Below are positions 10,236-31,609 of a DNA stretch of 64,000 bases, in pieces (positions within the stretch are counted from its first letter, which is position 1; each line of letters begins with the position of its first letter). Below the pieces are notes generated by a model. That model was not told where the DNA came from. It did not search any database and worked only from the letters and a program-made list of their open reading frames with translations. Both the position numbers and the translations under genes were made by a program. The DNA is taken from assembly GCA_018433245.1 (NCBI GenBank), contig JAHDRN010000001.1, forward strand, positions 1-64,000, in the 5' to 3' direction. This DNA is from Candidatus Proruminimicrobium quisquiliarum. Its GTDB lineage: Bacteria > Elusimicrobiota > Endomicrobiia > Endomicrobiales > Endomicrobiaceae.

Positions 10236-10248
10236 AATATACCGTGAA

Positions 10249-12105: not shown

Positions 12106-12122
12106 AATTATTCGGATTTTTG

Positions 12123-13706
12123 ATGAAATATAAGGGTTATTGGTGTTTACAACTTCATGCGCATTTGCCTTTTGTACGCCATCCGAACTTTCCTGATTTT
12201 CTAGAAGAAGATTGGCTGTATGAAGCAATAAGCGAAACGTATCTTCCGATTCTTTCCGTATTTGAAAATTTTGTTAATGACGGCATAGATTTTCGCGTTA
12301 CGATGACGATTACTCCGACTCTTGCCAATATGCTCGCAGATCCTCTTTTACAGTCAAGATATTATGCAAAGTTAAACAAACTGATAGAACTTTCCGAAAA
12401 AGAAATTTTAAGAACAAAAAACCAGCCTGAATTTCATCAGGTTGCGTTAATGTATGAGAGAAATCTTAAAAACTGCAGAAGAATATGGGAAAAATACCAC
12501 GGCAATATTTTAACGGGATTTAAAAATCTGCAGGATATGGGTAAAATTGAAATAATAACGTGCTGCGCTACGCACGGTTTTTTGCCTCTTATGCTAAACG
12601 AAACCGCCGTAAGAGCTCAGATAAGAATAGCCTGTCAGGACTATAAAAAACATTTCGGAAGAGAACCGAAAGGAATTTGGCTGGCAGAATGCGCTTATAC
12701 GTACGGAATAGATAAAATATTGAAAGAAGAGGGTTTGAGATTTTTCTTTCTTGAAGCGCACGGGCTTTTGTATGCCTCCCCCAGACCGCGTTACGGAGTT
12801 TTTGCTCCGATATACTGTCCGAGCGGCGTAGCGGCTTTCAGCAGAGATATGGAAACGGCGCATCAGGTTTGGAGCGCCGATTCAGGCTATCCGGGAGATC
12901 CCGATTACCGAGAATTTTACAGAGACTTAGCTTATGATTTGGATTATGACTATATAAAACCGTATCTTCATTCTGACGGAGAAAGAAGGAATATCGGCAT
13001 AAAGTACCACAGAATAACCGGCAAAGTGGCTCTTCATGAAAAACAGCCTTATAATCCCGAATGGGCGGAAAACAAAGCAAAAATGCACGCCGAAAATTTT
13101 GTTTTTAACAGAAAAAACCAGATAGATTATTTATCGGGGATTTTAGGAAGAGAACCCATAGTGGTTTCAATGTATGACGCAGAACTTTTCGGACACTGGT
13201 GGTTTGAAGGCCCTCAGTTTATAAATCATTTGTTCAGAGCCGTAAACAAACAGAAAATTTTTGCGCCGATCACTCCGGTTGAATATCTTGAAAAATTTAA
13301 AACGAATCAGGTTGCAACGCCTTCTCCTTCGTCGTGGGGTGATAAAGGATATTTTGAAGTATGGCTCAATTCAAAAAATGACTGGATATATAAACATTTG
13401 CATGTTATAGCCGATAGAATGGTTGAAATAGCTTCCGCAAACAGAACGGCAGCAGGATCAAAATTGAGATTATTGAATCAGGCGGCAAGAGAACTTTTAC
13501 TCGCGCAGTCTTCAGATTGGGCTTTTATAATGACGACCGGTACAATGGTTGAATACGCCGAAAAAAGAACAAAAGAACATATATATAATTTCAATACTTT
13601 GTACGACCAAATAAAAAACAATAATATTGATGAAGGATTCCTTTCAAATTTGGAATATACGAATAACATATTCCCCGATATAGATTATACAGTTTATATA
13701 AAATAA
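12123..13706 (+). CDS. GH57 1,4-alpha-glucan branching enzyme
   Basis: 527 residues from the ATG at 12123. Probably makes alpha-1,6 branches in glycogen-like glucans. Seen: the GH57 start with LQLHAHLPFVRHP, the nucleophile region GIWLAECAY (Glu) and the acid/base region SMYDAELFGHWWFEGP (Asp), plus a C-terminal helical domain (KHLHVIADRM ... SSDWAFIMTTGTMVEYA) characteristic of the branching-enzyme subgroup rather than amylases. Cytoplasmic, no signal peptide. The stop TAA shares one base with the rsmI start (TAATG). Confidence 0.88.
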   Translation: MKYKGYWCLQLHAHLPFVRHPNFPDFLEEDWLYEAISETYLPILSVFENFVNDGIDFRVTMTITPTLANMLADPLLQSRYYAKLNKLIELSEKEILRTKNQPEFHQVALMYERNLKNCRRIWEKYHGNILTGFKNLQDMGKIEIITCCATHGFLPLMLNETAVRAQIRIACQDYKKHFGREPKGIWLAECAYTYGIDKILKEEGLRFFFLEAHGLLYASPRPRYGVFAPIYCPSGVAAFSRDMETAHQVWSADSGYPGDPDYREFYRDLAYDLDYDYIKPYLHSDGERRNIGIKYHRITGKVALHEKQPYNPEWAENKAKMHAENFVFNRKNQIDYLSGILGREPIVVSMYDAELFGHWWFEGPQFINHLFRAVNKQKIFAPITPVEYLEKFKTNQVATPSPSSWGDKGYFEVWLNSKNDWIYKHLHVIADRMVEIASANRTAAGSKLRLLNQAARELLLAQSSDWAFIMTTGTMVEYAEKRTKEHIYNFNTLYDQIKNNNIDEGFLSNLEYTNNIFPDIDYTVYIK

Positions 13707-14410
13707 TGAATAAAGGTATTTTATACGTAGTTCCAACTCCGATAGGAAATCTTGAAGACATTACTTTCAGGGCCGTCAGAATTTTGAAAGAATGCGACGC
13801 CGTCGTATGTGAAGACACAAGGCAGACTTTAAAACTCTTGTCTCATCTGCAGATATCAAAACCTCTTATAAGTTTTTATACGCAAAACCAGTTAAGAAAA
13901 ATTCCTCAGATAATATCAATGCTTGAACAGGGAAAAAATATTTCGCTTGTTTCAGACTGCGGAACTCCGGCGGTATCCGATCCGGGCTATTATCTTGTTA
14001 AAGAAGCCGTAAATAAAGGTATTGAAATTGTTTCTCTGCCCGGCCCGTGCGCTTTGATAACCGGTCTTGTCGGCTCGGGACTCCCGACAGATTCATTTAT
14101 TTTCCTCGGATTTTTGAGAAAAAAAACAGGCAAAATGAAAAAAGAACTTCTTGAAGCAAAGTCTTTAAATAAAACTATTATATTTTATGAATCTCCTCAC
14201 AGAATTTTAAAAACTCTTGAAACATGCGCCGAAGTTTTCGGCGGAGAATGCAGCATAACGCTCGGCAGGGAACTTACAAAAAAATTTGAAGAGTATATAA
14301 GAGGCACTATTTCCGGAGTTTTGGATATTTTAAAAAATAGAGAAATACTCGGAGAATTTGTTATAATTATTTATGCGGTAAAAGATACGGCTGAAGAGAC
14401 CGATTGTTGA
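13706..14410 (+). CDS. rsmI: 16S rRNA (cytidine1402-2'-O)-methyltransferase
   Basis: 234 residues, tetrapyrrole-methylase fold. Modifies C1402 in the decoding centre. Seen: LYVVPTPIGNLEDIT at the N-terminus, CEDTRQT, SDCGTPAVSDPG, the SAM-contact loop LPGPCALITGLVGSGLP, and the FYESPHRI and LGRELTKKFEEY blocks. Somewhat shorter than the E. coli enzyme (286) because it lacks the C-terminal extension. Coupled to the GH57 gene by a one-base overlap. Confidence 0.94.
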   Translation: MNKGILYVVPTPIGNLEDITFRAVRILKECDAVVCEDTRQTLKLLSHLQISKPLISFYTQNQLRKIPQIISMLEQGKNISLVSDCGTPAVSDPGYYLVKEAVNKGIEIVSLPGPCALITGLVGSGLPTDSFIFLGFLRKKTGKMKKELLEAKSLNKTIIFYESPHRILKTLETCAEVFGGECSITLGRELTKKFEEYIRGTISGVLDILKNREILGEFVIIIYAVKDTAEETDC

Positions 14411-14437: not shown

Positions 14438-15508
14438 ATGATATATGTGACAAAAAGTTTTTTGCCGCCGGTAAAACTGTATAAAAAATATATAGACAAT
14501 ATCTGGAAAACCAATCAAATTACAAACCAGGGACCTTTATTAAAAGAACTTGAAAATAAACTTAAAAAATATCTGCACGTTAAATATCTTCATTTTCTTT
14601 CAAACGGAACCGTTGCTCTTCAGCTTGCTTTGGACGCTTTAAATATAAAAAACGGGGAAATTATAACCACTCCTTTTTCTTATGTCGCTACGACGTCTTC
14701 AATTTTATGGGAAAGATGTTCTCCCGTTTTTGTTGATATAGAACCGGATAATTTTACCATAGACGTCTCGCAGATAGAAAAGAAAATAACAAAAAAAACA
14801 AAAGCGATTCTTGCGGTGCATGTTTTCGGATATGCATGCGACATTGACGGAATTCAAAAGATCGCAAAAAAATATAATCTTAAAGTTATTTATGACGGAG
14901 CTCACGCTTTCAGCGTTAAATATAAAGGAAAATCTCTGCTTGATTACGGAGACATAACGACATGCAGTTTTCATGCCACGAAACTTTTTCATACCGTTGA
15001 AGGCGGCTGCTGCATAACAAAAGACAAAAAAACAAACGATAAACTGGAACTTGCAAAAAGGTTCGGGCATAATGGAGATATTCATAAACAGCTTGGAATA
15101 AATGCAAAAAATTCAGAATTTCATGCCGCAATGGGGCTTTCTAATTTACCTTTCATTGACAAAATTATAAATGAAAGAAAAAAAATATCAAAACTTTATG
15201 ATAAACTGCTTCCTGAAATACAAAAACCGAAAAAACAAGAAAATCTTGAATACAATTACGCCTATTATCCAGTAATTTTTAAAAATGAAAAACAATTATT
15301 AAATGTTATCAGCCGATTAAACAAAGAAAATATTTTTCCGAGAAGATATTTTTATCCTTCTTTGAATACCCTTCCTTATTTAATGAAAAAACAAAATTGT
15401 TCTGTTTCGGAAAATATTTCAAAAAGAATAGTTTGTTTGCCTATATATGCCGGACTTGAAAATAAAAATATAGAAAAAATCATAAAAATTATAAATAGAA
15501 TCATTTAA
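14438..15508 (+). CDS. DegT/DnrJ/EryC1-family sugar aminotransferase
   Basis: PLP enzyme that aminates a keto-sugar nucleotide to a 4-amino (or 3-amino) sugar. 356 residues. Seen: FLSNGTVALQLALDAL for phosphate binding, VHVFGYACD and YDGAHAFSVKYKGK around the PLP Asp, and the Schiff-base Lys in SFHATKLFHTVEGG. The short length and the NeuD-type acyltransferase just downstream resemble the VioA/VioB- and QdtB/QdtC-type pairs that build N-acylated dideoxyhexoses. First gene of the glycan island, following rsmI by 27 nt with an ACGGAG ribosome-binding site. Confidence 0.85.
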   Translation: MIYVTKSFLPPVKLYKKYIDNIWKTNQITNQGPLLKELENKLKKYLHVKYLHFLSNGTVALQLALDALNIKNGEIITTPFSYVATTSSILWERCSPVFVDIEPDNFTIDVSQIEKKITKKTKAILAVHVFGYACDIDGIQKIAKKYNLKVIYDGAHAFSVKYKGKSLLDYGDITTCSFHATKLFHTVEGGCCITKDKKTNDKLELAKRFGHNGDIHKQLGINAKNSEFHAAMGLSNLPFIDKIINERKKISKLYDKLLPEIQKPKKQENLEYNYAYYPVIFKNEKQLLNVISRLNKENIFPRRYFYPSLNTLPYLMKKQNCSVSENISKRIVCLPIYAGLENKNIEKIIKIINRII

Positions 15509-15540
15509 AATAAATTAATTTGAAGAAAGGAGAGATTATT

Positions 15541-16197
15541 ATGTTTCTTGGTATATATGGCAGCGGCGGACTGGGCCGTGAAGTTTTAGAACTTTCAAAT
15601 CAAATTAATGCTATTTCACATAAATGGGACGATATTATATTTATTGACGATACAAAACCGGAAGGCCTATATAAAAATCATAAAATTTATCCTTTTGAAG
15701 AAATATTAAAAAATTATAAGACGAATGATATTGAAATTATTATTGCAATCGGAGAGCCTGATGCTAGAAAAAAATTATGGAATAAAATATCAGAACATAA
15801 ATATTCATTTGCAACGCTTATTCATCCGAATGTTTATATACCTGAAAGTACTAAAATTGAAACAGGGACAACAATTTGTGCAGATGCTTATATTTCATGT
15901 GATGTAAAAATTGGTAAAAATGTATATGTTCAACCTAAAGCTTCTATTGGACATGATTGTAAGGTTTCTAATCATTCAGTTTTAGCACCTTTTGTTTCTT
16001 TAGCAGGATATTGTAATATTGGAGAAGCAACATATATTGGAATGAGCGTTCCAGTAAAAGAAAAAGTCAATATAGGTTCTGAATCAATAATCGGAATGGG
16101 GTCTGTAGTAGTTAGAGATATTCCGGATAATGTTATTGCTCTCGGCAACCCGGCCAGGGTTATGAAAGAAAATACGGATAAAAAAGTATTTAAGTGA
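15541..16197 (+). CDS. NeuD-family sugar acyltransferase
   Basis: 218 residues. N-terminal Rossmann-like part (IYGSGGLGREVLELS) followed by a left-handed beta-helix of hexapeptide repeats (IGKNVYVQPKASIGHDC, IGSESIIGMGSVVVRDI), the organisation of PglD/VioB/NeuD acyltransferases. The catalytic His is expected in IGHDC. Likely N-acylates the amino sugar made by the preceding gene; the acyl donor could be acetyl-CoA or, given the downstream ACP and ligase, an acyl-ACP. Start 15541 follows AAGGAGAG. From the middle of this gene onward the DNA becomes visibly more AT-rich than its neighbours, which suggests transfer. Confidence 0.82.
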   Translation: MFLGIYGSGGLGREVLELSNQINAISHKWDDIIFIDDTKPEGLYKNHKIYPFEEILKNYKTNDIEIIIAIGEPDARKKLWNKISEHKYSFATLIHPNVYIPESTKIETGTTICADAYISCDVKIGKNVYVQPKASIGHDCKVSNHSVLAPFVSLAGYCNIGEATYIGMSVPVKEKVNIGSESIIGMGSVVVRDIPDNVIALGNPARVMKENTDKKVFK

Positions 16198-16216
16198 AAT
16201 TAGAGGAGTATGAAAT

Positions 16217-16962
16217 ATGTTATTAAAAGGCAAGACAGCGGTTATTACAGGCTGTATGCAGGGAATAGGTAAAGCTACTCTTGATATGTTCGCAAAAGAA
16301 GGTGCCGATATTTTTGCCTGTTGTCAAAAAGAATCTGAAGATTTTATAAGACATCTGGAAAATTTAAAAAAAGAATATAACATTGAAATAATTCCCGTAT
16401 ATTTTGATTTGGCAGATACTGACAGTATAAAAAATGCATCAAAAAATATTTTGCAAACAAAAAAAACGGTTCATATTCTTGCCAATATTGCAGGTATCAC
16501 AAAAGATGCATTATTCCCGATGGTTACAAGAGAGCAGCTTCAACAAGTGTTTGAAATTAATTTTTTTCACAAATTTTATTTACGCAATACATAGTAAAAA
16601 TTATGTTAAAATATGGTTCTGGAGGAAGCATAATTAATACTTCAAGCATATCCGGTATAGATGGGAATAGAGGACAGCTTGCCTATGGCGCTTCAAAAGC
16701 AGCATGGGTATCTGCGACAAAAACAATGGCAGAGGAATTAGGGGCCAACGGCATAAGAGTAAATGCAATAGCTCCGGGAGTTATTGCAACGGCAATGACT
16801 GAAAATTTGCCTGAAGAAGCTTTAAATAAAAAAATATCAAAAAGCAATATAAAAAGAAAAGGAACACCTGAAGAAGTTGCCGGAGTAATAACTTATTTGG
16901 CTTCTGATTTATCAAGTTTTGTTACAGGTCAAATCATTCGCGTTGACGGAGGAATAGGATAA
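16217..16962 (+). pseudogene. SDR-family oxidoreductase (FabG-like), frameshifted
   Basis: Two adjacent open frames (16217-16594 and 16603-16962) together make one short-chain dehydrogenase. The first has the NAD(P) motif TGCMQGIG and the end of the central fold; the second has the catalytic SGGSIINTSS and YGASKAA blocks and a normal C-terminus. The intact paralogue at 16967 has eight T where this gene has seven (16561-16567); adding one T restores a 248-residue protein with TQYI at the join, matching TQYI in the paralogue. The lesion is therefore a single-base loss in a T run: a recent pseudogene, a phase-variable or slippage site, or a sequencing error. Strong GAGGAG ribosome-binding site. 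Confidence 0.85.
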
Positions 16963-16966
16963 ATTT

Positions 16967-17710
16967 ATGTTGTTAAAAAATAAAAATGCAATAATAACCG
17001 GAAGCAACAGGGGAATAGGGAAAGCTATGCTTATAGCATTTGCACAGAACGGCGCAAATATATGGGCTCATTCAAGAAAAGAATCTCCTGAATTCACAGA
17101 ATTAATAAATACAGTGTCAAAAGATTATAATGTTCAAATATGGCCTATTTATTTTGATCTTACAAATTATGCTGAAATGAAAAATTCTGTAAAACAAATT
17201 AATGAATACAAAAAAACAGTTGATATTCTTGTTAATAATGCAGGTATAATGAATAATTCTTTATTTCAAATGACAACAAAAGATATCTTATATAACCAAT
17301 TTGAGATTAATTTTTTTTCAATATTTACGTTCACGCAATACATATCAAAATTTATGGTAAGACAAAATTCCGGAAGTATTATAAATATTGCTTCAATTGC
17401 AGCTTTGGATGGCTTTGACGGACAATCTGTTTATGGTGCGACAAAATCTGCAATAATTGCAATGACCAGATCAATTTCAAATGAATTGTCTCTAAATGGT
17501 ATTCGTGTTAATACAATTGCGCCAGGGATTATTGATACGGATTTAATAAACGTAATGAGTAAAGAGGTAATAGAAAAAAATATAGCAAATACTGCGTTAA
17601 AGAGATTGGGAAAACCCTTTGAAGTAGCGAATACCGCTGTTTTCTTGGCATCAGAATATTCTTCTTATATTACAGGACAAGTGATCCGCGTAGATGGCGG
17701 CAGATTATAA
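16967..17710 (+). CDS. SDR-family oxidoreductase, 3-oxoacyl-ACP reductase-like
   Basis: 247 residues, NAD(P)H-dependent. Seen: TGSNRGIG cofactor motif, NNAGIM, catalytic Ser in SGSIINIASIAALDG, YGATKSA (Tyr/Lys pair) and a C-terminal TGQVIRVDGG. Closest in style to FabG, so it may reduce a 3-oxoacyl group on the neighbouring acyl carrier protein, for example to give a hydroxyacyl substituent for an amino sugar; a sugar-nucleotide reductase is also possible. Clearly a tandem duplicate of the frameshifted gene just upstream (4-nt gap). Confidence 0.85.
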   Translation: MLLKNKNAIITGSNRGIGKAMLIAFAQNGANIWAHSRKESPEFTELINTVSKDYNVQIWPIYFDLTNYAEMKNSVKQINEYKKTVDILVNNAGIMNNSLFQMTTKDILYNQFEINFFSIFTFTQYISKFMVRQNSGSIINIASIAALDGFDGQSVYGATKSAIIAMTRSISNELSLNGIRVNTIAPGIIDTDLINVMSKEVIEKNIANTALKRLGKPFEVANTAVFLASEYSSYITGQVIRVDGGRL

Positions 17711-17725
17711 TAATGAGGTAATAAA

Positions 17726-17965
17726 ATGACAAATTTGGAAAAGTATACGAATGTATTTGCTGAAATATTCGGGATTTCTGAAAAACAAATAGAAAAACTT
17801 AAATATCAGGATATAAAACAATGGGATTCCGTAGGACACATGACATTGATTGCCAAGCTTGAAGAGACTTTTGATATTATGATGGATACCGAAGATATTA
17901 TAGGTTTAAGCTCGTTTGAAAAGGGCAAGGAAATAATGGCAAAATATGGTATTGAAATTAAGTAA
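17726..17965 (+). CDS. Acyl carrier protein of the glycan island
   Basis: 79 residues, helical, with the phosphopantetheine attachment Ser in WDSVGHM (about residue 36). It differs from housekeeping ACPs, which carry DSLD; the WDSVGH type is usual for ACPs dedicated to a specialised pathway. GAGGT ribosome-binding site. It overlaps the acyl-activating enzyme by 20 bases, so the two should be made together: the ligase probably loads this carrier. Confidence 0.85.
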   Translation: MTNLEKYTNVFAEIFGISEKQIEKLKYQDIKQWDSVGHMTLIAKLEETFDIMMDTEDIIGLSSFEKGKEIMAKYGIEIK

Positions 17966-19364
17966 TTTTGAAAATAAAAAGGCTGTTATAACCGAAGACA
18001 ACAAAAATATTACTTATTCGGAAATTCTTTTTAATTGCGATGAACTTGTAAAACATATAAAAAAAAGATGCCTCGTTTTACTTCTAAGTTCCAATACTAT
18101 AGGTTCATTGGTCGGATATATAGGTTTTTTAAATAATAATATTGTGCCGTTAATGCTTGATTCAAAAATTGATAATTCCCTTTTGCAAAAATTCTTATAT
18201 TTATATAAGCCGGATTATATATATTTGCCGTCGGAAATAACTGAAAAATTTACAAATTTAAAGAATATATATTCAAATTTAAACTATTCTCTCTTAAAGA
18301 CCGATTATAATTCGGGATTTGAGTTAAACGACGAATTGGCTTTGCTTTTGACAACTTCAGGATCTACAGGCAGTCCCAAACTCGTACGTCAGAGTTATAA
18401 TAATATTAAAGCAAACACGGAATCAATTGTAGAGTTTTTAAAAATAAATGAGACGGAAATAACGATAACTACTCTTCCAATGAGTTATACATACGGCTTA
18501 TCTGTAATAAATTCCCATCTTTATGCAGGGGCGACTATAGTTTTAACGGAAAAGACTCTTATGCATAAAGAATTCTGGCAGCAGTTTAAAATAAACGGAG
18601 TGACCTCTTTTGCCGGAGTACCGTATATTTATGAAATGCTGGCAAAATTAAGATTTTTTGGTATGAAACTGCCTTCATTAAAAACTATGACTCAGGCAGG
18701 GGGAAAATTGTCCTTTGAATTGCATAAAAAATTTGCTGAGTGGGCTGAAAATAATAAAAAAAAATTTATAGTAATGTACGGACAGACCGAAGCGACAGCC
18801 AGAATGTCATATTTGCCGCATCAAAGATCATTGCAAAAATGCGGAAGCATAGGAATAGCAATACCGGGCGGTAAATTTTATTTAGCGGATTCTAAAGGAA
18901 ATAAAATTACTTCTGATGAAACTGTCGGTGAACTTGTATATGAAGGTGATAATGTTTCTTTGGGCTATGCTGAATCAGGTTTGGATTTGTGCAAAGCGGA
19001 TGAAATGAACAAAAGGCTTTTTACAGGAGATTTGGCAAAATTTGACAAAGACGGATATTATTATATTGTTGGGCGCAAAAAAAGATTTCTTAAAATTTTT
19101 GGTAACAGAATTAATCTTGATGAAACGGAAGAACTTATAAGAAGCAGTTTCAGTGGAATTCAATGCGTCTGCGGAGGTATTGACGATTTAATGTATATAT
19201 TTATTACTGACGATTCAAAAAAAGAAAAAATTCTAAAATTTATTGCCGAGAAAACAGGCTTAAATCAGACTGCTTTTAGAATCAAAACAATAGAGCAAAT
19301 TCCTAAAAACGAATCGGGAAAAACGCTTTACAGTGAATTGAGTAAATATTATGATAAAGTTTAA
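17946..19364 (+). CDS. AMP-forming acyl-activating enzyme (ANL superfamily)
   Basis: 472 residues. Adenylates a carboxylic acid and transfers it to a thiol, here most likely the ACP encoded immediately upstream. Seen: P-loop LLTTSGSTGSPKLVRQ, MYGQTEA, LFTGDLAKFDKDGYYYIVGRKKRFLKIF (given as blocks TGDLAKFDKDG and GRKKRFLKIFG), and the catalytic C-terminal Lys in KNESGKTLYSEL. The substrate acid is unknown; amino-acid, hydroxy-acid and short fatty-acid activation all fit. The start overlaps the ACP gene by 20 bases; ribosome-binding site is weak. Confidence 0.85.
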   Translation: MVLKLSNFENKKAVITEDNKNITYSEILFNCDELVKHIKKRCLVLLLSSNTIGSLVGYIGFLNNNIVPLMLDSKIDNSLLQKFLYLYKPDYIYLPSEITEKFTNLKNIYSNLNYSLLKTDYNSGFELNDELALLLTTSGSTGSPKLVRQSYNNIKANTESIVEFLKINETEITITTLPMSYTYGLSVINSHLYAGATIVLTEKTLMHKEFWQQFKINGVTSFAGVPYIYEMLAKLRFFGMKLPSLKTMTQAGGKLSFELHKKFAEWAENNKKKFIVMYGQTEATARMSYLPHQRSLQKCGSIGIAIPGGKFYLADSKGNKITSDETVGELVYEGDNVSLGYAESGLDLCKADEMNKRLFTGDLAKFDKDGYYYIVGRKKRFLKIFGNRINLDETEELIRSSFSGIQCVCGGIDDLMYIFITDDSKKEKILKFIAEKTGLNQTAFRIKTIEQIPKNESGKTLYSELSKYYDKV

Positions 19365-20436
19365 TACGGTTCTGGAAAAACATCCTTTTTGTATGTTAAA
19401 ACAAGAAAAAACGCTGTTTTTAAATGAAACGTTAAAACAACTTACGCTGTTTCATTATAAAAACTGCGATAAATATAAAAAAATATTGGATTCGCTTGAT
19501 TTTAATCCGAATGCAATTGATAATTATTACAATATACCTTTTTTGCCGGTTTCACTGTTTAAAGAATTGGATTTGTTAAGCGTCAATAGGAATGATGTGT
19601 TCAAAATTATGACTTCTTCGGGTACAACCGGACAAGCCGTTTCAAAAATATATTTAGACAAAACAACAGCAGTCAACCAGCAAAAAATTCTTGTAAAAAT
19701 TGTTTCTGATTTTATAGGTTCGTCAAGAATACCGATGCTTATTATTGACAGTCCGTCTGTGATAAAAGACCGAGCTAATTTTTCTGCCCGCGGTGCGGGA
19801 ATTTTAGGATTTTCAATATTTGGAACAGACATAACGTATGCTCTTGATGATAATATGAAAATAAATATTAGCGCAATTGAAAATTTTTTAGAAAAACATA
19901 AAACAAAACAAATTTTACTTTTTGGTTTTACTTTTATGATATGGCAGCATTTTTATAAAGAACTTAAAAAATTAAATAATAAAATAGATTTTTCAAGAAG
20001 CATGCTTATTCACGGCGGCGGCTGGAAAAAACTTATTAATGAATCTGTTTCGCGCAAAGAATTTAAAAAAGCGTTAAAAGATATTTGCGGATTAACAAAA
20101 GTGTATGATTATTACGGTATGGTTGAACAAACAGGATGCGTGTATATGGAATGTGAATACGAACATTTACATTCAAGTATTTTTTCCGATGTGATAACCA
20201 GGAGATATAATGATTTTTCATCTTGTAACATAGGTGAAAAAGGTATTGTTCAGGTTGTTTCAATTCTTCCCCAATCATATCCCGGACATTCTTTATTAAC
20301 TGAAGATGAAGGTATTATTTTGGGTGAAGATGACTGCCCGTGCGGGAGAAAGGGAAAATACTTTCAAATATTGGGCAGACTTGGAAATGCCGAGATAAGG
20401 GGGTGCAGCGATACTTATGCAGCCAAATTCAGATAA
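19351..20436 (+). CDS. LuxE-like acyl-protein synthetase
   Basis: 361 residues, LuxE family of the ANL superfamily. In luminous bacteria LuxE activates a fatty acid as acyl-AMP and holds it for the reductase LuxC. Seen: the family blocks FLPVSLFKE, the P-loop MTSSGTTGQAVSKI, SARGAGILGFSIFG, LLFGFTFMIW, LIHGGGWKK and YGMVEQ. It overlaps the preceding ligase by 14 bases and LuxC-like by 20. No luciferase (luxAB) gene is near, so the role is in acyl activation for another product, presumably a glycan substituent or lipid. Confidence 0.85.
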   Translation: MIKFNTVLEKHPFCMLKQEKTLFLNETLKQLTLFHYKNCDKYKKILDSLDFNPNAIDNYYNIPFLPVSLFKELDLLSVNRNDVFKIMTSSGTTGQAVSKIYLDKTTAVNQQKILVKIVSDFIGSSRIPMLIIDSPSVIKDRANFSARGAGILGFSIFGTDITYALDDNMKINISAIENFLEKHKTKQILLFGFTFMIWQHFYKELKKLNNKIDFSRSMLIHGGGWKKLINESVSRKEFKKALKDICGLTKVYDYYGMVEQTGCVYMECEYEHLHSSIFSDVITRRYNDFSSCNIGEKGIVQVVSILPQSYPGHSLLTEDEGIILGEDDCPCGRKGKYFQILGRLGNAEIRGCSDTYAAKFR

Positions 20437-21607
20437 TTTACAATATATTGTAGGTAATGATCAGATTGTAGAGCAAATGCTTAAAGTAGCGCCGTTACCC
20501 GTTTTTTCAGAGCAGTCAATTTCTTTTTTAAACGAAATATCAAAGTTGCTTATGAAAGAAACAAACAAATTTTCAGATGTGACAACATTCGCTTTTTGGT
20601 GCAGGAAATCCGCTTTGTTGCAGCAGAAGAATAAATATAATGATTTGTCTTTGAGATTTGGAAAAGGCATTGCGTTTCACAGCACACCTTCAAATGTGCC
20701 TGTTAATTTTGCATTTAGTTTAGCGGCAGGCTTACTTGCCGGCAATGCAAATATTGTCCGTCTGCCGTTGAAAAATTTTATTCAAGTTGACATTATATGC
20801 GGCGTTATAAATAAATTATTAAAAAGTTCGTATAAGAATATGCGTCCGTATGTATGTATGCTTAAATATTCTTCGTCAAAAGAGATTTCCGACAGATTTT
20901 CATCAATATGCGATTCAAGAATTATTTGGGGAGGAGACAAAACTATTGAAGGACTAAGACAGTCTCCTTTAAAAATTAAAGCTGATGAAATTATATTCGC
21001 CGACAGATATTCAATAGCGGTTATAGAGACCGATAAATATTTACAAGCAAAGGATAAAACAAAAATTGCTTTTGACTTTTACAATGATACGTATTTTTCA
21101 GATCAAAATGCTTGTACTTCGCCAAGAATTATCTTTTGGATAGGGAAAGAAAAAGAAAGGGCAAAAAAAGAATTTTGGGAACAAATGCACAGGCAAATAA
21201 AAGAAAAATATATTATGCAGCCTGTACAGGCTGTTTTGAAATTGTCGGCATATTATCGTGCGGCGTCTGAATTTGACGTAAAACTGATAAAAAACAATAA
21301 TACTTCTGTTATGCGTGTTGGCGTTAAAAAAATTGCCGGCAATATTATGGATTTTAAATATCACAGCGGTTTCTTTTTTGAATATGACATAAATAGTTTA
21401 AAAGAAATATTACCCATGTGTTTGGAACGGTGTCAGACTATTGTATATTACGGGATTGATAAAAGTAAATTTGCGGAATTTTTAAATAAATATAGACCTC
21501 GGGGAGTAGACCGTATTGTTCCTTTGGGGAAATCTCTTGATTTTTCATTGATTTGGGACGGCTATGATTTAATAAGCAGTTTGTCTAGAAAAATTACAAT
21601 TTGCTAA
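20417..21607 (+). CDS. LuxC-like acyl-CoA/acyl-protein reductase
   Basis: 396 residues, LuxC family (aldehyde-dehydrogenase fold). Reduces an activated acyl group to the aldehyde with NADPH. Seen: GKGIAFHSTPSNVPVNFAFS, AGLLAGNANIVRLP for cofactor binding, and the catalytic Cys in SDQNACTSPRI. Shorter than V. harveyi LuxC (about 480) mainly in the middle. Start overlaps luxE-like, so the two form a complex-encoding pair as in lux operons. An aldehyde product could be aminated, reduced to an alcohol or attached to a sugar; this is open. Confidence 0.86.
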   Translation: MQPNSDNLQYIVGNDQIVEQMLKVAPLPVFSEQSISFLNEISKLLMKETNKFSDVTTFAFWCRKSALLQQKNKYNDLSLRFGKGIAFHSTPSNVPVNFAFSLAAGLLAGNANIVRLPLKNFIQVDIICGVINKLLKSSYKNMRPYVCMLKYSSSKEISDRFSSICDSRIIWGGDKTIEGLRQSPLKIKADEIIFADRYSIAVIETDKYLQAKDKTKIAFDFYNDTYFSDQNACTSPRIIFWIGKEKERAKKEFWEQMHRQIKEKYIMQPVQAVLKLSAYYRAASEFDVKLIKNNNTSVMRVGVKKIAGNIMDFKYHSGFFFEYDINSLKEILPMCLERCQTIVYYGIDKSKFAEFLNKYRPRGVDRIVPLGKSLDFSLIWDGYDLISSLSRKITIC

Positions 21608-21634
21608 ATGTAATATCGGTGCGGAGGTTCGTAA

Positions 21635-22777
21635 TTGATTATAAATTGTTTAAAATATATAAAAAGATTTTTTTTGTATCCGTTAAGAAATTTAAAAGTT
21701 TTTAGATTTTCTTTTCATAGATACCCGCCAAATGGGTACTATCCGTGTCATGTTAAGAACTACGATAAAAATCAAAAAAAATTAATAGAACAATATAAAA
21801 ATGAAAAACAGATTGTTGTATTTTTTAATCTTACAATTCACATAGTGACAGGCGGAATGCTTTCAATAAATAATTTTGTAGAACATTCAAAACAATTTTC
21901 AGCCGAATATAATTTTGGATTGATAATGTCGGGACTTCCTTTTGAACATGCCGTAATTCCAAACAAATATTTTGAATATGCTTTGGAACCGATAGATTTT
22001 AATTATATTATAAAATATACAAAACCGGAAAAACTATTATTGAATATACCTGAAGTTTTTATAATATCATTTTTAAATGCTTTGTCTGTAAAACATATTG
22101 AGTGGTTAAAAAGCATAAATAAGCTGAATATAAATATTTTAAACCAAAATGATGAATTGATGCCTGAACAAAAATATATTGAGAAAATCAGAGAAATTTG
22201 CAATAACAGACTGACGATAACAGCGGCGCATAAGAGTTATTGTACCGGTGAGAAAAGCGTTCAATACGGAACGCCTGTTTTTTTGTTGCGGCCGTTTGCC
22301 GAAAAATATTATAAAACGGATTTTAAAGATAAAAAAAATATAATATTATTGTCCCCTGATTTAAATGCTTATAAAAATAAAGTAGTCAAAAAACTTAAAA
22401 AAGAATTACCTGATTACAAATTTAAAATAATAAAAAATATGAAATTTGAAGATTATAAGAAAGAAATATCAAAAGCAAAATATACAATAACTTTCGGAGA
22501 GGGATTTGACGGATATTTTTTAGAACCTTATCTTAGCGATTCAATCGGTTTTGCCGTTTATAACAATGTCTTTTTTCCGAAGGATTTTCCAAAAATACAG
22601 ACGTTGTATGCTTCGTGGCAAGACTTATATGACAATATAGTTGAAGATATCAGAAATATTGATAAAAACCCTTTGAAATATAAAGAAATTTCAAAAACCA
22701 TAGAAAATTATTTTTTGGCAAACGATACATCAATGATTAATTTGGAAGATTTATATAAAAGATGGATGGGAAATTAA
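21635..22777 (+). CDS. Probable glycosyltransferase (GT-B-like), TTG start
   Basis: 380 residues. The start is TTG, supported by a perfect GGAGGT ribosome-binding site 6 nt upstream; there is no suitable ATG. I do not recognise the family with certainty. The N-terminal part has VVFFNLTIHIVTGGMLSI-like features (short blocks FNLTIHIVTGG, INNFVEHS) and the C-terminal part TITFGEGFDGYFLEP with a downstream acidic/aromatic block, which together resemble GT-B enzymes of the rhamnan-synthesis type (WsaF-like). Sits between LuxC-like and two GT2 genes, so a role in building the same surface glycan is likely. Strongly AT-rich. Confidence 0.6.
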   Translation: MIINCLKYIKRFFLYPLRNLKVFRFSFHRYPPNGYYPCHVKNYDKNQKKLIEQYKNEKQIVVFFNLTIHIVTGGMLSINNFVEHSKQFSAEYNFGLIMSGLPFEHAVIPNKYFEYALEPIDFNYIIKYTKPEKLLLNIPEVFIISFLNALSVKHIEWLKSINKLNINILNQNDELMPEQKYIEKIREICNNRLTITAAHKSYCTGEKSVQYGTPVFLLRPFAEKYYKTDFKDKKNIILLSPDLNAYKNKVVKKLKKELPDYKFKIIKNMKFEDYKKEISKAKYTITFGEGFDGYFLEPYLSDSIGFAVYNNVFFPKDFPKIQTLYASWQDLYDNIVEDIRNIDKNPLKYKEISKTIENYFLANDTSMINLEDLYKRWMGN

Positions 22778-22780
22778 CAA

Positions 22781-23755
22781 ATGCAGGTTTCAATAATAAT
22801 AGTAAATTATAAAACGAAAGAACTAACCAAAGACGCCGTACAATCCGTATTTGACAAAACGGACGGCGTTGAGTATGAGATTATTGTTATAGACAACGAT
22901 TCAAAAGACGCTTCATCCGAATATTTAAGAAACAAATTCGGAAATAAAATAGAAGTCATTGAAGCGGGCGCCAATCTCGGTTTCGGCAGAGCAAACAATA
23001 TTGGGATTAGAAAAGCAAAAGGTAAATATATATTTTTATTAAATTCTGATGCTAAACTTGTAAATAATGCAGTTAAGATATTTTATGATTATATGGAGTC
23101 AAATCCGGATGTCGGGGCATGCTGCGGGAATTTATATGATGACAATATGAATCCTGTTTTGTCATTTTCAATGAGAAATCCGACAATATTGTCATATTTT
23201 TATACGAAATATTCGCATATTATTTCTAAAATGGGAACTTTTAATAAAAAGAAACAATACGGATTTTTTAATTATACAGATAAAATAATAGATATCGGAT
23301 ATGCTGCCGGAGCAGATATGTTTATAAAGAAATCAGTTCTTGATAAGTCCGGAGTATTTGACGAAGATATTTTTATGTACTATGAAGATGTTGATTTAAA
23401 TTATAGAATTAAAAAGGCAGGTTTTAAACTTAAATCTGTTCCGCAGGCAAAAATTATACATTTAGAGAGTCAGTCAACTAAAAATTTCCAAGAAAAATAT
23501 AAAAAAAGTTTAAACGGTGAATATAAATTCTATTTTAAAATATACGGTCATAAAACGGTTATATTTTATATTGAAATGCAGTTGTTCAATATAGTAAAAC
23601 TGATTATGCATTATGTTTTGCCAATAAAAATATTGAGAAAAATTTTTCATAATATATATAGCGTACAGGATTATAAAAATATGATTAAAAATAATTTCAA
23701 TGAGTATTGTGAAGCTAAAAAAAATTACATTGCCCAATTAGAATATAAAAAATGA
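22781..23755 (+). CDS. Glycosyltransferase family 2, rhamnosyltransferase-like
   Basis: 324 residues. GT-A fold: VSIIIVNYKT start, IDNDSKD, GFGRANNIGI, the metal/nucleotide motif LLNSDA and the acceptor-side block MYYEDVDLNYRIKKAG. These are the marks of WbbL-type enzymes that add deoxy-sugars to polysaccharide repeat units. The C-terminus is hydrophobic and amphipathic (around residues 255-295), probably membrane-associated. Its stop overlaps the next gene's ATG by 4 bases. Confidence 0.87.
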   Translation: MQVSIIIVNYKTKELTKDAVQSVFDKTDGVEYEIIVIDNDSKDASSEYLRNKFGNKIEVIEAGANLGFGRANNIGIRKAKGKYIFLLNSDAKLVNNAVKIFYDYMESNPDVGACCGNLYDDNMNPVLSFSMRNPTILSYFYTKYSHIISKMGTFNKKKQYGFFNYTDKIIDIGYAAGADMFIKKSVLDKSGVFDEDIFMYYEDVDLNYRIKKAGFKLKSVPQAKIIHLESQSTKNFQEKYKKSLNGEYKFYFKIYGHKTVIFYIEMQLFNIVKLIMHYVLPIKILRKIFHNIYSVQDYKNMIKNNFNEYCEAKKNYIAQLEYKK

Positions 23756-24690
23756 AAATATCTATAGCTTTATGCACTTATAACGGAGCAAAATACCTTG
23801 AAGAACAGCTGAAAAGTTTAGCAGAACAAACTTTAAAAGCTGACGAAATTATTATATGTGATGATAATTCTTCAGATAATACGGTTAATATAATAGACCG
23901 ATATAAAGACAATTTAAACATAAAACTGACTGTAAATAAAGTAAATCTCGGAGTAACTAAAAATTTCGAACAGGCGATATATCTTTGTAGCGGAGATATC
24001 ATCTTTTTATGCGATCAGGATGATGTGTGGGATAAAAACAAAGTAAAAATAATGTCCGAAAAAATGATTGAAGAAAAAACGGGTATTTGCTGTTGCGACG
24101 GGATTGTAGCGGACGAAAATCTTAAACAGATTGATTCATACACATTGTGGAATACTTCGGGGCTTTCAAAAATTGATTTGAACAGATTCAGCCCGTACAG
24201 CCTTATCAATAATTACTGCTTTACCGGAATGGCTTTGTGTTTTAGAAAAAATTTTACAAAATATTTTATGCCCATAAGCGAAAATGCGGTTCATGACGAA
24301 TGGATTGCGTTTATAATTTCATGTTTTTCAAAAGTTTCTTTTGTAAATCAAAAACTTGTCGTTTACAGGCAGCATTCGGAACAAAAGATAGGAATTAATT
24401 CAATTAAATCGTTAAAAGAAATATGGAAATTTTTGCGCTTATGCAAAATTGCCGATATGGAAAAGGAAACAAGAAAATTTGAAGATTTGGCGCTTAAATT
24501 AAAACAGCTTGAAATGGAAGCAAACCTTATAACGGCGATAGAAAATAAAATAAAACATTTAAAACGCCGCACTTCAAGAAGCAAATTCAGGTTTTTTGTT
24601 TTAACCGCGGAATTAATTTTCGGACAATATAAAAAATATTCCAACGGAACGTATAAAGCTTTTCTGAAAGATTTGTTTTCCGGCAGATAA
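23752..24690 (+). CDS. Glycosyltransferase family 2
   Basis: 312 residues. GT-A enzyme: ISIALCTYNGAKYLEEQL start, ICDDNSSDNT, the DxD-type motif FLCDQDDVWDKNKV, and HDEWIAFI acceptor block. This LCDQDDVW subgroup usually transfers galactose or rhamnose to lipid-linked glycans. Last gene of the island before the flippase; translationally coupled to the preceding GT2. Confidence 0.87.
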   Translation: MKISIALCTYNGAKYLEEQLKSLAEQTLKADEIIICDDNSSDNTVNIIDRYKDNLNIKLTVNKVNLGVTKNFEQAIYLCSGDIIFLCDQDDVWDKNKVKIMSEKMIEEKTGICCCDGIVADENLKQIDSYTLWNTSGLSKIDLNRFSPYSLINNYCFTGMALCFRKNFTKYFMPISENAVHDEWIAFIISCFSKVSFVNQKLVVYRQHSEQKIGINSIKSLKEIWKFLRLCKIADMEKETRKFEDLALKLKQLEMEANLITAIENKIKHLKRRTSRSKFRFFVLTAELIFGQYKKYSNGTYKAFLKDLFSGR

Positions 24691-24708
24691 TATAATTTTT
24701 TAATTTTG

Positions 24709-24714
24709 TATAAT
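24709..24714 (+). promoter_or_regulatory. -10 box just before the flippase gene
   Basis: A perfect TATAAT ends 6 nt before the ATG at 24721; no convincing -35 element is seen. There is no Shine-Dalgarno sequence between, so transcripts from here would be almost leaderless. Confidence 0.45.
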
Positions 24715-24720
24715 AAACGT

Positions 24721-26454
24721 ATGTTTAAATACTTTGATATACTTAAAAAAATCAATTTTCTTTTCGGTTTAAATCAAAAGATTAAGTTTGTAATTTTAGC
24801 GTTTGGAATTTTTATATCCTCCCTTTTGGAATTAATAGGAGTTTCGCTTGTTCTGCCGCTTATCGGCGTTGTTATGGACCCTTCCGTAATTGAAACAAAC
24901 AGAATATTGAAATATGTGTACGATTTTTTAAATATAAACTCCACTACAAATTTTCTCATACTGATATCTTTTTCTCTTGTAGGCGTATATGTGTTAAAAA
25001 ATATTTATATGACGGTCTTGTATTACTTTCAGTATAAAATGATTTTTAACGCCCAGAAAGAAATATCTACCAGACTTATGACTTTTTATTTGAAACAGCC
25101 GTATTCTTATCATTTGACCATAAATACAGCTGAAATAATAAGAACGGTAACTAATGACGTTGCTTATTGTTTTCAATTTCTTATACATCTTTTTGCGTTT
25201 GTTTCGGAACTATCGGTTGTTTTACTTTTAATATCGTTTTTGTTTTTTGTAAATAAAGCTATAACTCTCTCTCTTATATTTCTTTTCTTTTTAAGTTTTT
25301 TATTTTTATTCAAAAAACTGAAAATAAAAATGTCTTCGGTAGGCCGCGATAACCAGTTTTACGCAGGTCTTATGATTAAGTGGATAAATCAGGCTTTCGG
25401 AGCGATAAAAGATATAAAAACGCTTTCAAAAGAGCGTTTTTTTATAGATGAATATTATAAAAATTCCATTAAATATACTTCAGCCCAGAAATATTTTAAT
25501 TTTTTGCAGCAGCTGCCGAGAATTTTTATAGAAACTCTCGTTATATCTGTGGTCCTGCTTATGATAATTTATTTTCTTTACAAAGGAACAAATATAGCTT
25601 CAATTTTTACGCAGATATCGGTTTTTGCTATGGCTTGTTTTAGAATGATGCCTTCCGTAAGCAGAATTCAGGTTTCAATGAACGCTATGATTTTTTACAG
25701 ACCTTCGTTAAATGTTTTATACAACGATTTGAAAAAAACGGATGATTCCGAAACAAACGGCGGCGATGAAAATAAAGAAATAAACACGGAAGACGGCATA
25801 TCGGCGGAGAACATAAGCTACAGATATCCCAATACCGATAAACTTATTTTTGAAAACGCCGGATTTGAAATAAAAAACGGGCAGTCCGTCGCTTTTGTCG
25901 GTAAAACCGGTTCCGGCAAAACTACGCTTGCGGATATTATACTCGGTCTGTTAAAGCCTGTTACGGGAACGCTTAAAGCCGGAAGCGTTGATATATATAA
26001 AAATAAAAAAAGCTGGTCAAAAAAAATAGGATATGTTCCTCAGTTTATTTATCTTACAGACGATACAGTAAAAAATAATATTGTTTTTTACGACCGCTCA
26101 AACGTTGACGAAAAAAGACTCGCAAACGCCGTTGAAAAATCCCAGTTAAAAGAATTTATAGATTCGCTTCCTTCCGGCATTGAAACCGTGGTCGGCGAAA
26201 GAGGCATAAGACTTTCCGGCGGACAAAGGCAGAGAATAGGCATAGCGAGGGCTTTATACAACGAACCCGAATTTCTTGTTCTTGACGAAGCGACCTCATC
26301 GCTTGATACCGATACGGAAAAAGCCGTTATGGACGCGATTGAAAATTTATACGGTAAAATAACCATGATAATAATTGCCCACCGTCTGACCACAATAGCA
26401 AAATGCGACGTAATATACAGGGTTGAAAACGGTAAGATAATAAAAGAAAAATAA
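24721..26454 (+). CDS. ABC transporter, fused permease/ATPase (PglK-type flippase)
   Basis: 577 residues from the ATG at 24721 (an upstream TTG at 24706 would place the -10 box inside the gene). N-terminal half: about six membrane segments, beginning FVILAFGIFISSLLELIGVS. C-terminal ATPase: Walker A GKTGSGKTT, signature LSGGQRQRIGIARAL, Walker B FLVLDEATSSLD, H-loop IIAHRL. The export-type fusion at the end of a glycosyltransferase cluster suggests flipping of a lipid-linked oligosaccharide across the inner membrane, as PglK does; an MsbA-like lipid role is an alternative. Confidence 0.85.
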   Translation: MFKYFDILKKINFLFGLNQKIKFVILAFGIFISSLLELIGVSLVLPLIGVVMDPSVIETNRILKYVYDFLNINSTTNFLILISFSLVGVYVLKNIYMTVLYYFQYKMIFNAQKEISTRLMTFYLKQPYSYHLTINTAEIIRTVTNDVAYCFQFLIHLFAFVSELSVVLLLISFLFFVNKAITLSLIFLFFLSFLFLFKKLKIKMSSVGRDNQFYAGLMIKWINQAFGAIKDIKTLSKERFFIDEYYKNSIKYTSAQKYFNFLQQLPRIFIETLVISVVLLMIIYFLYKGTNIASIFTQISVFAMACFRMMPSVSRIQVSMNAMIFYRPSLNVLYNDLKKTDDSETNGGDENKEINTEDGISAENISYRYPNTDKLIFENAGFEIKNGQSVAFVGKTGSGKTTLADIILGLLKPVTGTLKAGSVDIYKNKKSWSKKIGYVPQFIYLTDDTVKNNIVFYDRSNVDEKRLANAVEKSQLKEFIDSLPSGIETVVGERGIRLSGGQRQRIGIARALYNEPEFLVLDEATSSLDTDTEKAVMDAIENLYGKITMIIIAHRLTTIAKCDVIYRVENGKIIKEK

Positions 26455-26459
26455 TTTTT

Positions 26460-27740
26460 TTATTTTACGGCTGTTTTTTTCAATATTTTGAAGATATCGC
26501 TATTGTCAATTATGCCGTTTTTTCCGGCATATATTTTCAGTAAATCCGACTGCGTTCCGAACGCATATATTCCCACAAGTTCGTTTGTATGATTTTTGCT
26601 TTTATATTTTACCGTTCTGTCAAATTTTAAAAGCATATTTTTGCCTGCAAAAATCATTTTTGAAGGCAGACGCCCTTTTTGGGGCTGTTCGTTAAATCTT
26701 AAAAAACCGGTTGCGTGGTCTGCCGTTACAAGCACAAGAGTGTTTTTCGGCGTCATATCGGTTTTGCCGGAATTGATTAGTTCAATTATTGATTTTACCG
26801 CGTTGTGCAGTTCATAAACGGAAGATACCATTGTATGATAATCGTTATCATGATTTGCCGAATCAATGTCTGACATTTCTATAACGGCAAAAAATGGCTT
26901 TTTTTTGGCAAGAAGTTTGTCTGCGGCAAAAAGCGCTATTTCCGAAAATTTTAAATCGTCTTCGCGGTATGAAAAAGAGGGCCTGTTTTTTTCGTTTTCG
27001 GGTATTGGAATATTGTAATTATCAAGGATAACAAACAGTTTTTTAGAGTCGTTGTAAAATAACATATTGTTTTTTATTTCTTTTGAATTCGTTACGTAAT
27101 ATCCGTTTGTTTCGGCAGTATCTTTCAGATAATCGTATTCGTTGCGTGCGATTATTATCTCGGGTTTTGAGATTGATAAAATCTCTTCGGCTATTTGTTT
27201 GCGGTTTTGCCTTGAAATATTATGAGCCGCAAAAGCCGCCGGAGTCGCATCATAAAAAAAAGTCGTTGTTATGAGGCATGTGTTATAGATTTTTTGTTTG
27301 TTCAGAATATCAAATATGTTTTCAAAAAAACTTCCTTTTTCATTTGTTGAGATGCAGCCGTTAACTGTCTTTTTACCGGTTGCAATTGCAGTCGCTGCGG
27401 CGGCAGAATCGGTTGCAGAAGCAGTCTCAAAATACTTTTCTGACGATTCGCTGAAATAATAGGGATAAGGTACTGCGCCGGCCTTGATTGCGTCGTATCC
27501 GTCGGGATTTCTTTCGTTGACGCAGGAAAGGCTCCAAGTCGCCGCAAAAGCCTTACACGGAAAAGAATCCCATATCAAATTTCCGCCTGTCCCGCATAAA
27601 TATGAACTTGCGGCAAATTCGCTTGACACGGACATTCCGTCGCCTATGAATAAAAAAACATATTTTGGAAAATCCGCTTCTGAAAGATTTGAAACTGTAA
27701 AGAGAATAAAAAAGAGAAGGAATATTTTTAAATTTTTCAT
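26460..27740 (-). CDS. phoA: Alkaline phosphatase
   Basis: 426 residues from the ATG at 27740, which gives a proper signal peptide (KIFLLFFILFTV); an ATG at 27764 would put the TATAAT box inside the gene. Secreted phosphomonoesterase. Seen: metal site FIGDGM, nucleophile Ser in SATDSAAAATAIATG, DIDSANHDND for metal 2, and ADHATGF near the C-terminus. Convergent with the flippase gene, 5 nt between stops, no terminator visible. Whether it is induced by phosphate starvation cannot be seen from the sequence. Confidence 0.9.
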   Translation of the reverse strand: MKNLKIFLLFFILFTVSNLSEADFPKYVFLFIGDGMSVSSEFAASSYLCGTGGNLIWDSFPCKAFAATWSLSCVNERNPDGYDAIKAGAVPYPYYFSESSEKYFETASATDSAAAATAIATGKKTVNGCISTNEKGSFFENIFDILNKQKIYNTCLITTTFFYDATPAAFAAHNISRQNRKQIAEEILSISKPEIIIARNEYDYLKDTAETNGYYVTNSKEIKNNMLFYNDSKKLFVILDNYNIPIPENEKNRPSFSYREDDLKFSEIALFAADKLLAKKKPFFAVIEMSDIDSANHDNDYHTMVSSVYELHNAVKSIIELINSGKTDMTPKNTLVLVTADHATGFLRFNEQPQKGRLPSKMIFAGKNMLLKFDRTVKYKSKNHTNELVGIYAFGTQSDLLKIYAGKNGIIDNSDIFKILKKTAVK

Positions 27741-27752
27741 TTTTACGTTAAT

Positions 27753-27758
27753 ATTATA
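27753..27758 (-). promoter_or_regulatory. -10 box of the alkaline phosphatase gene
   Basis: TATAAT on the minus strand, 12 nt before the ATG at 27740. No good -35 match, which would fit an activator-dependent promoter. Confidence 0.4.
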
Positions 27759-27792
27759 ACACATAATAAATGTTTTTATTATTCGTTTTTAA

Positions 27793-31315: not shown

Positions 31316-31609
31316 ATGATAACAAAAGATATAACGGTAAATGAAACGGTATTTAAAGCAGTGCAGATTGACCTGAGCGAGAGAGGGAAATTGCTTATGA
31401 TCATAGGCGCAAAAGGATACGTTATGTGCGGCTATCTTAATATTAATACCGCCCAAAAGCTCGGAGATGCCGCCTGTATGGTTACAGGAGTAAAAACGAT
31501 TGACGATGTTTTAAACGCAGATATAGTCGCGCTAACCGCCGAAGCGCAAAAACTGGGCATTGAAATGGGAATGCCTGTAAAAGACGTTCTTAAAAAGCTT
31601 TCAAATTAA
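31316..31609 (+). CDS. DUF1805 (YunC-like) protein
   Basis: 97 residues. Begins directly after the GH57 stop codon. The blocks LLMIIGAKGYVMCGYLN and KLGDAACMVTGVKTIDD are typical of DUF1805/YunC, a small family of unknown function that binds no known cofactor. Its stop codon overlaps the stop of the convergent TMTC-like gene by 3 bases. Confidence 0.8.
   Translation: MITKDITVNETVFKAVQIDLSERGKLLMIIGAKGYVMCGYLNINTAQKLGDAACMVTGVKTIDDVLNADIVALTAEAQKLGIEMGMPVKDVLKKLSN

Follow-up and report, generated by a model that had tools for sequence, protein, structure and literature searches.

The closest described relatives of the locus considered here are flagellin glycosylation islands. In the Group II islands of Aeromonas (orf1-3, luxE, luxC, fgi-1), genes for an acyl carrier protein (ACP), FabG, an AMP-dependent synthetase, LuxE and LuxC are followed by a GT2 glycosyltransferase gene, and the glycan associated with this set carries a 102 Da unknown moiety (PMC7874193). 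Islands of Enterobacteriaceae contain Acp, LuxE, LuxC, CaiC and FabG (PMC4875605), and a liposugar or fatty aldehyde product has been proposed in both studies. The viosamine island of Pseudomonas syringae comprises vioA, vioB, vioR and acp together with genes for the ketosynthase III VioS and the methyltransferase VioM (PMC3927599). Here, we analyze an operon in a 64,000-nucleotide stretch of the Candidatus Proruminimicrobium quisquiliarum genome (Elusimicrobiota; contig JAHDRN010000001.1, positions 1 to 64,000), referred to below as the window, in which an ACP, an ANL-superfamily ligase, LuxE and LuxC are joined to amino-sugar genes. The combination is not undescribed: the ACP/FabG/ligase/LuxE/LuxC set is already known from the Aeromonas and enterobacterial flagellin glycosylation islands. 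New relative to the literature examined are a swapped, non-flagellar cassette in this phylum, a pan-phylum core, a thioesterase slot and free pairing with carboligases.

We hold with about even confidence that the island can be replaced as a cassette and serves a lipid-linked surface glycan, and that its module makes small aldehydes for side groups, not fatty aldehydes. The ACP-ligase-LuxE-LuxC module would probably convert a small acid to an aldehyde destined for a sugar side group. If correct, this reading would offer testable chemistry for a gene set from flagellin and surface-glycan islands of many gut and environmental bacteria that has so far been labelled only 'fatty acid synthesis', could hint at where unexplained glycan masses come from, the 102 Da moiety on Aeromonas flagellin being one example, and would show other uses of LuxE and LuxC, which are best known from luminescence.

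The LuxE-LuxC core in related loci

A LuxE profile drawing on four genomes of this phylum retrieved 80 loci from public genomes, mostly best LuxE matches, and gene calls and profiles were made for each of the 84 loci in the survey. The retrieved loci derive from Gastranaerophilales, Lachnospiraceae and other Clostridia, Synergistales, Treponema, Smithella, Flavobacterium, Kosakonia and others. The surveyed loci share a common core of ACP, ANL ligase, LuxE and LuxC, with the ligase directly upstream and LuxC directly downstream of LuxE in nearly all of them. Up to 3 kb upstream of LuxE, ligases occur at a density of 29 per 100 kb, versus 0.5-2.3 elsewhere, and up to 3 kb downstream LuxC occurs at 31 per 100 kb, versus 0-1.1 elsewhere; the ligase-LuxE-LuxC linkage is far above chance. 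The initial annotation would have been contradicted had LuxE and LuxC never co-occurred with such genes in other genomes; their placement beside ACP, short-chain dehydrogenase/reductase (SDR) and ligase genes is the rule across the 84 loci.

Gene composition was counted in the 51 loci whose sequence spans 19 kb or more. ACP, ANL ligase and LuxC are present in all 51 (in four, LuxC exists only as a fusion to LuxE), SDRs in 40, and a gene of a carbon-carbon ligase (carboligase) family in 41, an upper bound, since NeuB beside pseudaminic-type genes may serve another sugar in some loci. The carboligases are a split transketolase (28), NeuB (15) or an acetolactate-synthase-like thiamine diphosphate (ThDP) enzyme (10), with two kinds in some loci; ten loci with full flanks carry none, which is a recurring form. 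For the split transketolase, an SDR lies directly upstream of 33 of the 45 TktN genes, and TktC follows 44 of them. Other recurrent members are a PF00975 thioesterase directly before LuxE (18 cases), a hydrolase read as metallo-beta-lactamase-type near LuxE in other loci, and an L-lactate-dehydrogenase equivalog directly after LuxC (9 loci); LuxE-LuxC fusions number eight. By analogy with the lux logic of thioesterase, ligase and reductase, the thioesterase before LuxE may occupy the place of LuxD.

Maximum-likelihood trees of LuxE and of LuxC were used to compare changes of carboligase type with those under shuffled labels. Carboligase type is not clustered on either tree, requiring 35 changes versus 35.8 shuffled for LuxE and 37 versus 35.4 for LuxC. 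A link between carboligase type and particular LuxE or LuxC clades was not supported, clustering being no tighter than with shuffled labels. This random spread suggests that the core performs one common step, and because the core can be paired with each of the three carboligase families, the simplest common supply is their acceptor, an aldehyde. From this linkage, we infer that the core supplies the aldehyde acceptor to the carboligases. A broader proposal, which we hold with somewhat less than even confidence, is that ACP-ANL-(thioesterase)-LuxE-LuxC constitutes a widespread, mobile aldehyde supplier, freely paired with transketolase, NeuB and acetolactate-synthase-like C-C ligases to give polyhydroxylated side groups or new surface-glycan sugars, with the luminescence pair put to a new use. 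Literature searches that paired LuxE or acyl-CoA reductase with transketolase gave no matches.

The window LuxE groups with Gastranaerophilales (Melainabacteria; support 99/90), whereas the window LuxC falls with other groups, and these discordant positions point to inter-phylum transfer and reassortment inside the module. Five loci (L052, L066, L072, L077 and L086) carry two LuxE genes within 20 kb; in both trees the additional copies group apart as one well-supported clade, which suggests a second, different reduction step.

The survey also recorded several other genes and LuxE sets. A protein cluster of 245 residues without a Pfam match ('c15') occurs in ~16 loci, frequently as the immediate upstream neighbour of the SDR-transketolase genes (for example L058 14859-15596). 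Five Treponema-family loci (L149-L153; LuxE near 9000-10500) have no glycan genes nearby and carry a different LuxE-LuxC set, comprising by eye an acetyl-CoA hydrolase/4-hydroxybutyrate CoA-transferase-like protein, ACP, a metallo-hydrolase, LuxE and LuxC, the last not called in two of them. LuxE relatives with 42-51% identity are found on plasmids of Ponticoccus, Deinococcus and Rhizobium (H1-H13), the Rhizobium relative adjoining an annotated acyl-CoA reductase. No LuxC relatives were found in the viral contigs searched.

The operon in the window and its site

According to the open reading frame (ORF) list, positions 14438-26454 of the plus strand form a single compact operon whose genes are spaced by 3-27 nucleotides (nt) or overlap by 4-20 nt, in agreement with the near-continuous packing described initially. 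The overlaps include ACP/ligase (20 nt), ligase/LuxE (14 nt) and LuxE/LuxC (20 nt), and a PglK-like flippase gene extends the operon beyond position 24690. The genes stand in the order listed, with a 380-residue protein between LuxC and the two GT2 glycosyltransferases.

13706-14410: rsmI-like gene, left flank, named by eye and by a TP_methylase match
14438-15508, plus strand: DegT/DnrJ/EryC1 nucleotide-sugar aminotransferase, VioA/PglE-like (PF01041, 4e-88)
15520-16197, plus strand: NeuD/PglD/VioB-family sugar N-acyltransferase with hexapeptide repeats (TIGR03570, 200 bits, cut-off 161); alternative ATG start at 15541
16217-16962, plus strand: SDR1, FabG-like reductase, frameshifted (ORFs 16217-16594 and 16603-16962)
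16561-16567, plus strand: T7 tract, site of the SDR1 frame change (SDR2 equivalent, T8 at 17311-17318)
16967-17710, plus strand: SDR2, FabG-like reductase, intact (PF13561, 2e-57)
17726-17965, plus strand: acyl carrier protein, phosphopantetheine Ser35 in WDSVGH (motif; weak NCBIfam ACP match)
17946-19364, plus strand: ANL-superfamily adenylate-forming ligase, proposed ACP loader (PF00501, 1e-41)
19351-20436, plus strand: LuxE-family acyl-protein synthetase, nucleophile Cys352 in RGCSD (PF04443, 3e-54)
20417-21607, plus strand: LuxC-family acyl reductase, nucleophile Cys233 in DQNACTSP (PF05893, 7e-27)
21635-22777, plus strand: probable GT-B glycosyltransferase (weak GT-B fold matches, poor model)
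22781-23755, plus strand: GT2 glycosyltransferase (PF00535; 75% to its counterpart in a same-genus genome, locus L178)
23752-24690, plus strand: GT2 glycosyltransferase (PF00535; 72% to the same genome)
24706-26454, plus strand: PglK/MsbA-like ABC lipid-linked-oligosaccharide flippase (79% to the same genome)
26460-27764: alkaline-phosphatase-like gene (phoA), right flank, divergent to the operon, named by eye

All genes of the initial inventory are present in the order and on the strand given there; the frameshift in SDR1 had been missed, and the third glycosyltransferase is only probable. The protein at 21635-22777 has no family match by Pfam, NCBIfam or PDB sequence search, and its low-confidence model (predicted local distance difference test, pLDDT, 50) yields weak GT-B-like fold matches; a single homologue was found, adjoining LuxC in L037. 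The flippase matches PglK best among NCBIfam models (382 bits, under the equivalog cut-off).

LuxE and LuxC have the same nearest solved relative, the Photobacterium LuxC-LuxE fatty acid reductase complex (7xc6). The C-terminal Cys352 of LuxE and Cys233 of LuxC, in a DQxAC motif, align with its catalytic cysteines, and the same complex is the top PDB fold match of the LuxC model (pLDDT 88). The ACP has no Pfam match, and the phosphopantetheine serine of its WDSxGH motif is invariant across 10 relatives. With these residues and the LuxC fold retained, the island enzymes LuxE, LuxC and ACP look competent from sequence, and the separate acid-to-aldehyde step that the initial annotation assigned to LuxE and LuxC is predicted by family, catalytic cysteines and fold. 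Against the NCBIfam luminescence equivalogs, LuxE scores 82 bits (cut-off 550) and LuxC 47 (cut-off 750), so far below these cut-offs that a long-chain substrate should not be assumed. Neither a LuxD thioesterase nor a LuxAB luciferase occurs among the island proteins, the latter as first noted, and the rest of the genome was not searched for LuxAB.

The nearest solved relatives of the ligase are oxalyl-CoA synthetase, a nonribosomal peptide synthetase A domain, malonyl-CoA synthetase and DltA, and the substrates of its best relatives are oxalate, malonate, D-alanine, amino acids and 4-hydroxybutyrate; luciferases and a fatty-acyl-CoA synthetase come lower in the list. These similarities give weak evidence that the ligase substrate is a small acid. 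They also bear on the product favoured in both published surveys (PMC7874193, PMC4875605), a long-chain fatty aldehyde or alcohol attached to the glycan or its lipid anchor ('liposugar'). Such a product would suit LuxE, LuxC, ACP, FabG and ligase, all of which belong to fatty-acid-type families. We nevertheless consider it unlikely, given the small-acid substrates of the ligase relatives, the sugar-type carboligases in most loci, the VioB-type acyltransferase in many and the lactate dehydrogenase in some, and an Aeromonas glycan that carries the 102 Da moiety and no fatty chain (PMC7874193).

SDR1 is split by a one-base shift at its T7 tract, where the tandem copy SDR2 has T8, and its two pieces jointly match the intact SDR of L039 at 57% over 247 residues. 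The shift may reflect sequencing error, slippage or decay. SDR1 and SDR2 are most similar to the SDRs preceding transketolase in L073, L112 and L039. The gene complement of the window equals that of the Kosakonia locus L073 (NeuD, ACP, SDR, SDR, ligase, LuxE, LuxC and DegT) minus the split transketolase, and L073 adjoins two genes that by eye resemble fliA and fliZ. The gene order is that of L075, whose contig ends early. The closest whole-module relative is L039, in which TktN is truncated and followed by a protein read as a PD-(D/E)XK transposase. The window genome has only one split transketolase, located within a pentose/nucleoside locus. In the same-family genome G118, a LuxC/LuxE remnant with several stop codons (L032 1-4934) stands beside FkbM and NeuD pieces as a decayed module copy.

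That the window copy is itself a decaying or inactive cassette, left after loss of the transketolase and the SDR1 frameshift, appears quite improbable. The frameshift, the closeness of SDR1-SDR2 to transketolase-preceding SDRs and the clear remnant in G118 would agree with decay; on the other side, the remaining ORFs are all intact with catalytic residues kept, a lone T missing from a homopolymer may simply reflect a sequencing error in a draft genome, and loci lacking transketolase are common.

A genome of the same genus (G191, locus L178) has the same flanks, with rsmI on the left and two GT2 genes, the PglK-like transporter and phoA on the right (63-83%). By our own reading, these flanks enclose another cassette (L178 1224-12464) of RfbF/RfbG/RfbH-like proteins, an aldolase-like protein, two HAD proteins and a YerE-like ThDP enzyme, whose product is possibly a branched-chain dideoxy sugar. 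Shared flanks around differing contents indicate that the sugar cassette at 14438-22777 is replaceable, whereas the glycosyltransferase-flippase part downstream of it is stable, and the window thus exemplifies a sugar-cassette swap in an Elusimicrobiota lineage. The arrangement of the site was not found in more distant family members. Neither this swap nor the carboligases present in most relatives and absent here had been noticed in the initial annotation.

The window genome encodes RmlB, which supplies dTDP-4-keto-6-deoxyglucose, and one WcaJ-type (Bac_transf) initiating transferase lies elsewhere on the contig. No STT3/PglB oligosaccharyltransferase was found in the genome, and PglB-type N-glycosylation was rejected; no Flagellin_N match was found in the whole genome, and a flagellar acceptor was likewise rejected. 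An O-antigen- or capsule-like polymer, or a glycan O-linked through an unrecognised transferase, is therefore more likely. Near the glycan locus, a TPR-tailed membrane protein of the PMT_2 type (31606-33378, minus strand) is a candidate O-glycosyltransferase. Two GH57-like proteins, named by eye from sequence, flank the island region (12120-13706 and 29126-31315).

A putative small-aldehyde pathway

The amino-sugar branch would begin with DegT; perosamine synthase and QdtB are among its nearest solved relatives. By family, this enzyme would convert dTDP-4-keto-6-deoxyglucose, made elsewhere in the genome, to a dTDP-4-amino sugar. The NeuD/VioB-like enzyme would then N-acylate this sugar to give an N-acylated 4-amino-4,6-dideoxyhexose. 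The amino-sugar pathway with an N-acyl group proposed initially is consistent with the best solved relative of NeuD, VioB (7txp, 1e-31), and with the presence of RmlB.

In the second branch, adjacency and overlap suggest that the ANL ligase charges the dedicated ACP with a carboxylic acid that is small and probably hydroxylated. Keto and hydroxyl groups may be set by the FabG-like SDRs. Cys352 of LuxE is predicted to accept the acid or acyl group, which LuxC would then reduce to an aldehyde through Cys233 with a nicotinamide cofactor. In most relatives, gene linkage suggests that the aldehyde would serve as acceptor for the split transketolase, NeuB or the acetolactate-synthase-like enzyme, giving a polyhydroxylated or branched side group. 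As the window has no carboligase of its own, its aldehyde may be used directly or reduced, or the housekeeping transketolase may extend it; alternatively, the branch may be decaying. The glycosyltransferases would assemble the repeat, and the PglK-like transporter would flip the lipid-linked glycan.

The flagellin glycan of Treponema denticola, of 450 Da, bears a 2-methoxy-4,5,6-trihydroxyhexanoyl group that would fit transketolase extension. The oral-treponeme-like genomes found carry a different LuxE-LuxC set without transketolase, and a link to this glycan is set aside as conjectural.

The initial annotation had leaned on the viosamine model, which holds for the counterparts of VioA, VioB, VioR and ACP and fails for the VioS ketosynthase and VioM methyltransferase, neither of which has a counterpart in 14438-26454. 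An extension of that model, in which the module builds only the N-acyl group and the aldehyde or alcohol made by LuxE and LuxC is kept in the final acyl group, draws on the correspondence of DegT, NeuD, SDR and ACP to VioA, VioB, VioR and ACP, and on the lack of carboligases in ten full-flank loci and in Aeromonas. The window island lacks the ketosynthase that such a route has in VioS, and NeuD or GNAT is missing from about half of the core-bearing loci; we give this alternative a low probability.

Several points weigh against a small aldehyde made for side groups. Firstly, the window cassette has no linked C-C ligase, TktN is truncated in its closest relative L039, and the frameshifted SDR1 leaves the pathway of the window possibly partial. 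Secondly, DegT occurs in only about half and NeuD in only about one third of the loci, and the 84-locus set is biased to gut bacteria and consists mostly of best LuxE matches. Finally, co-occurrence in glycan loci leaves the order of steps unset, such that LuxE and LuxC may act before or after the ACP.

Comparison with described systems

The Aeromonas island shares with the window an ACP, a FabG-like SDR, a ligase, LuxE, LuxC and a GT2 gene after LuxC. It differs in having pseudaminic-acid genes and a flagellin acceptor, whereas the window has DegT and NeuD together with a PglK-like flippase, and its genome lacks flagellin. The enterobacterial islands contain the same five families as the window, and Kosakonia L073, unlike the window, has an additional split transketolase and a flagellar setting. 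In Shewanella, the NeuB, ThDP enzyme and SDR genes of sfmABCDE are each required for normal flagellin modification (PMC3765264), which lends the carboligase side of the proposal experimental backing. That operon resembles the NeuB/ThDP variants of the module in its NeuB, ThDP enzyme and oxoacyl reductase, and differs in having no ACP, LuxE or LuxC.

The Lux fatty acid reductase (7xc6) shares the LuxC fold and both catalytic cysteines with the window pair, although the window LuxC has 16% identity to it in the fold alignment and is ~80 residues shorter, and the island is without LuxD and luciferase. The viosamine island has in common with the window an aminotransferase, a VioB-type acyltransferase, an oxoacyl reductase and an ACP; where it has a ketosynthase and a methyltransferase, the window instead has the ligase, LuxE and LuxC. 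At the level of the whole site, the arrangement parallels that of O-antigen loci, which likewise contain a swappable sugar cassette, as at 14438-22777 in the window.

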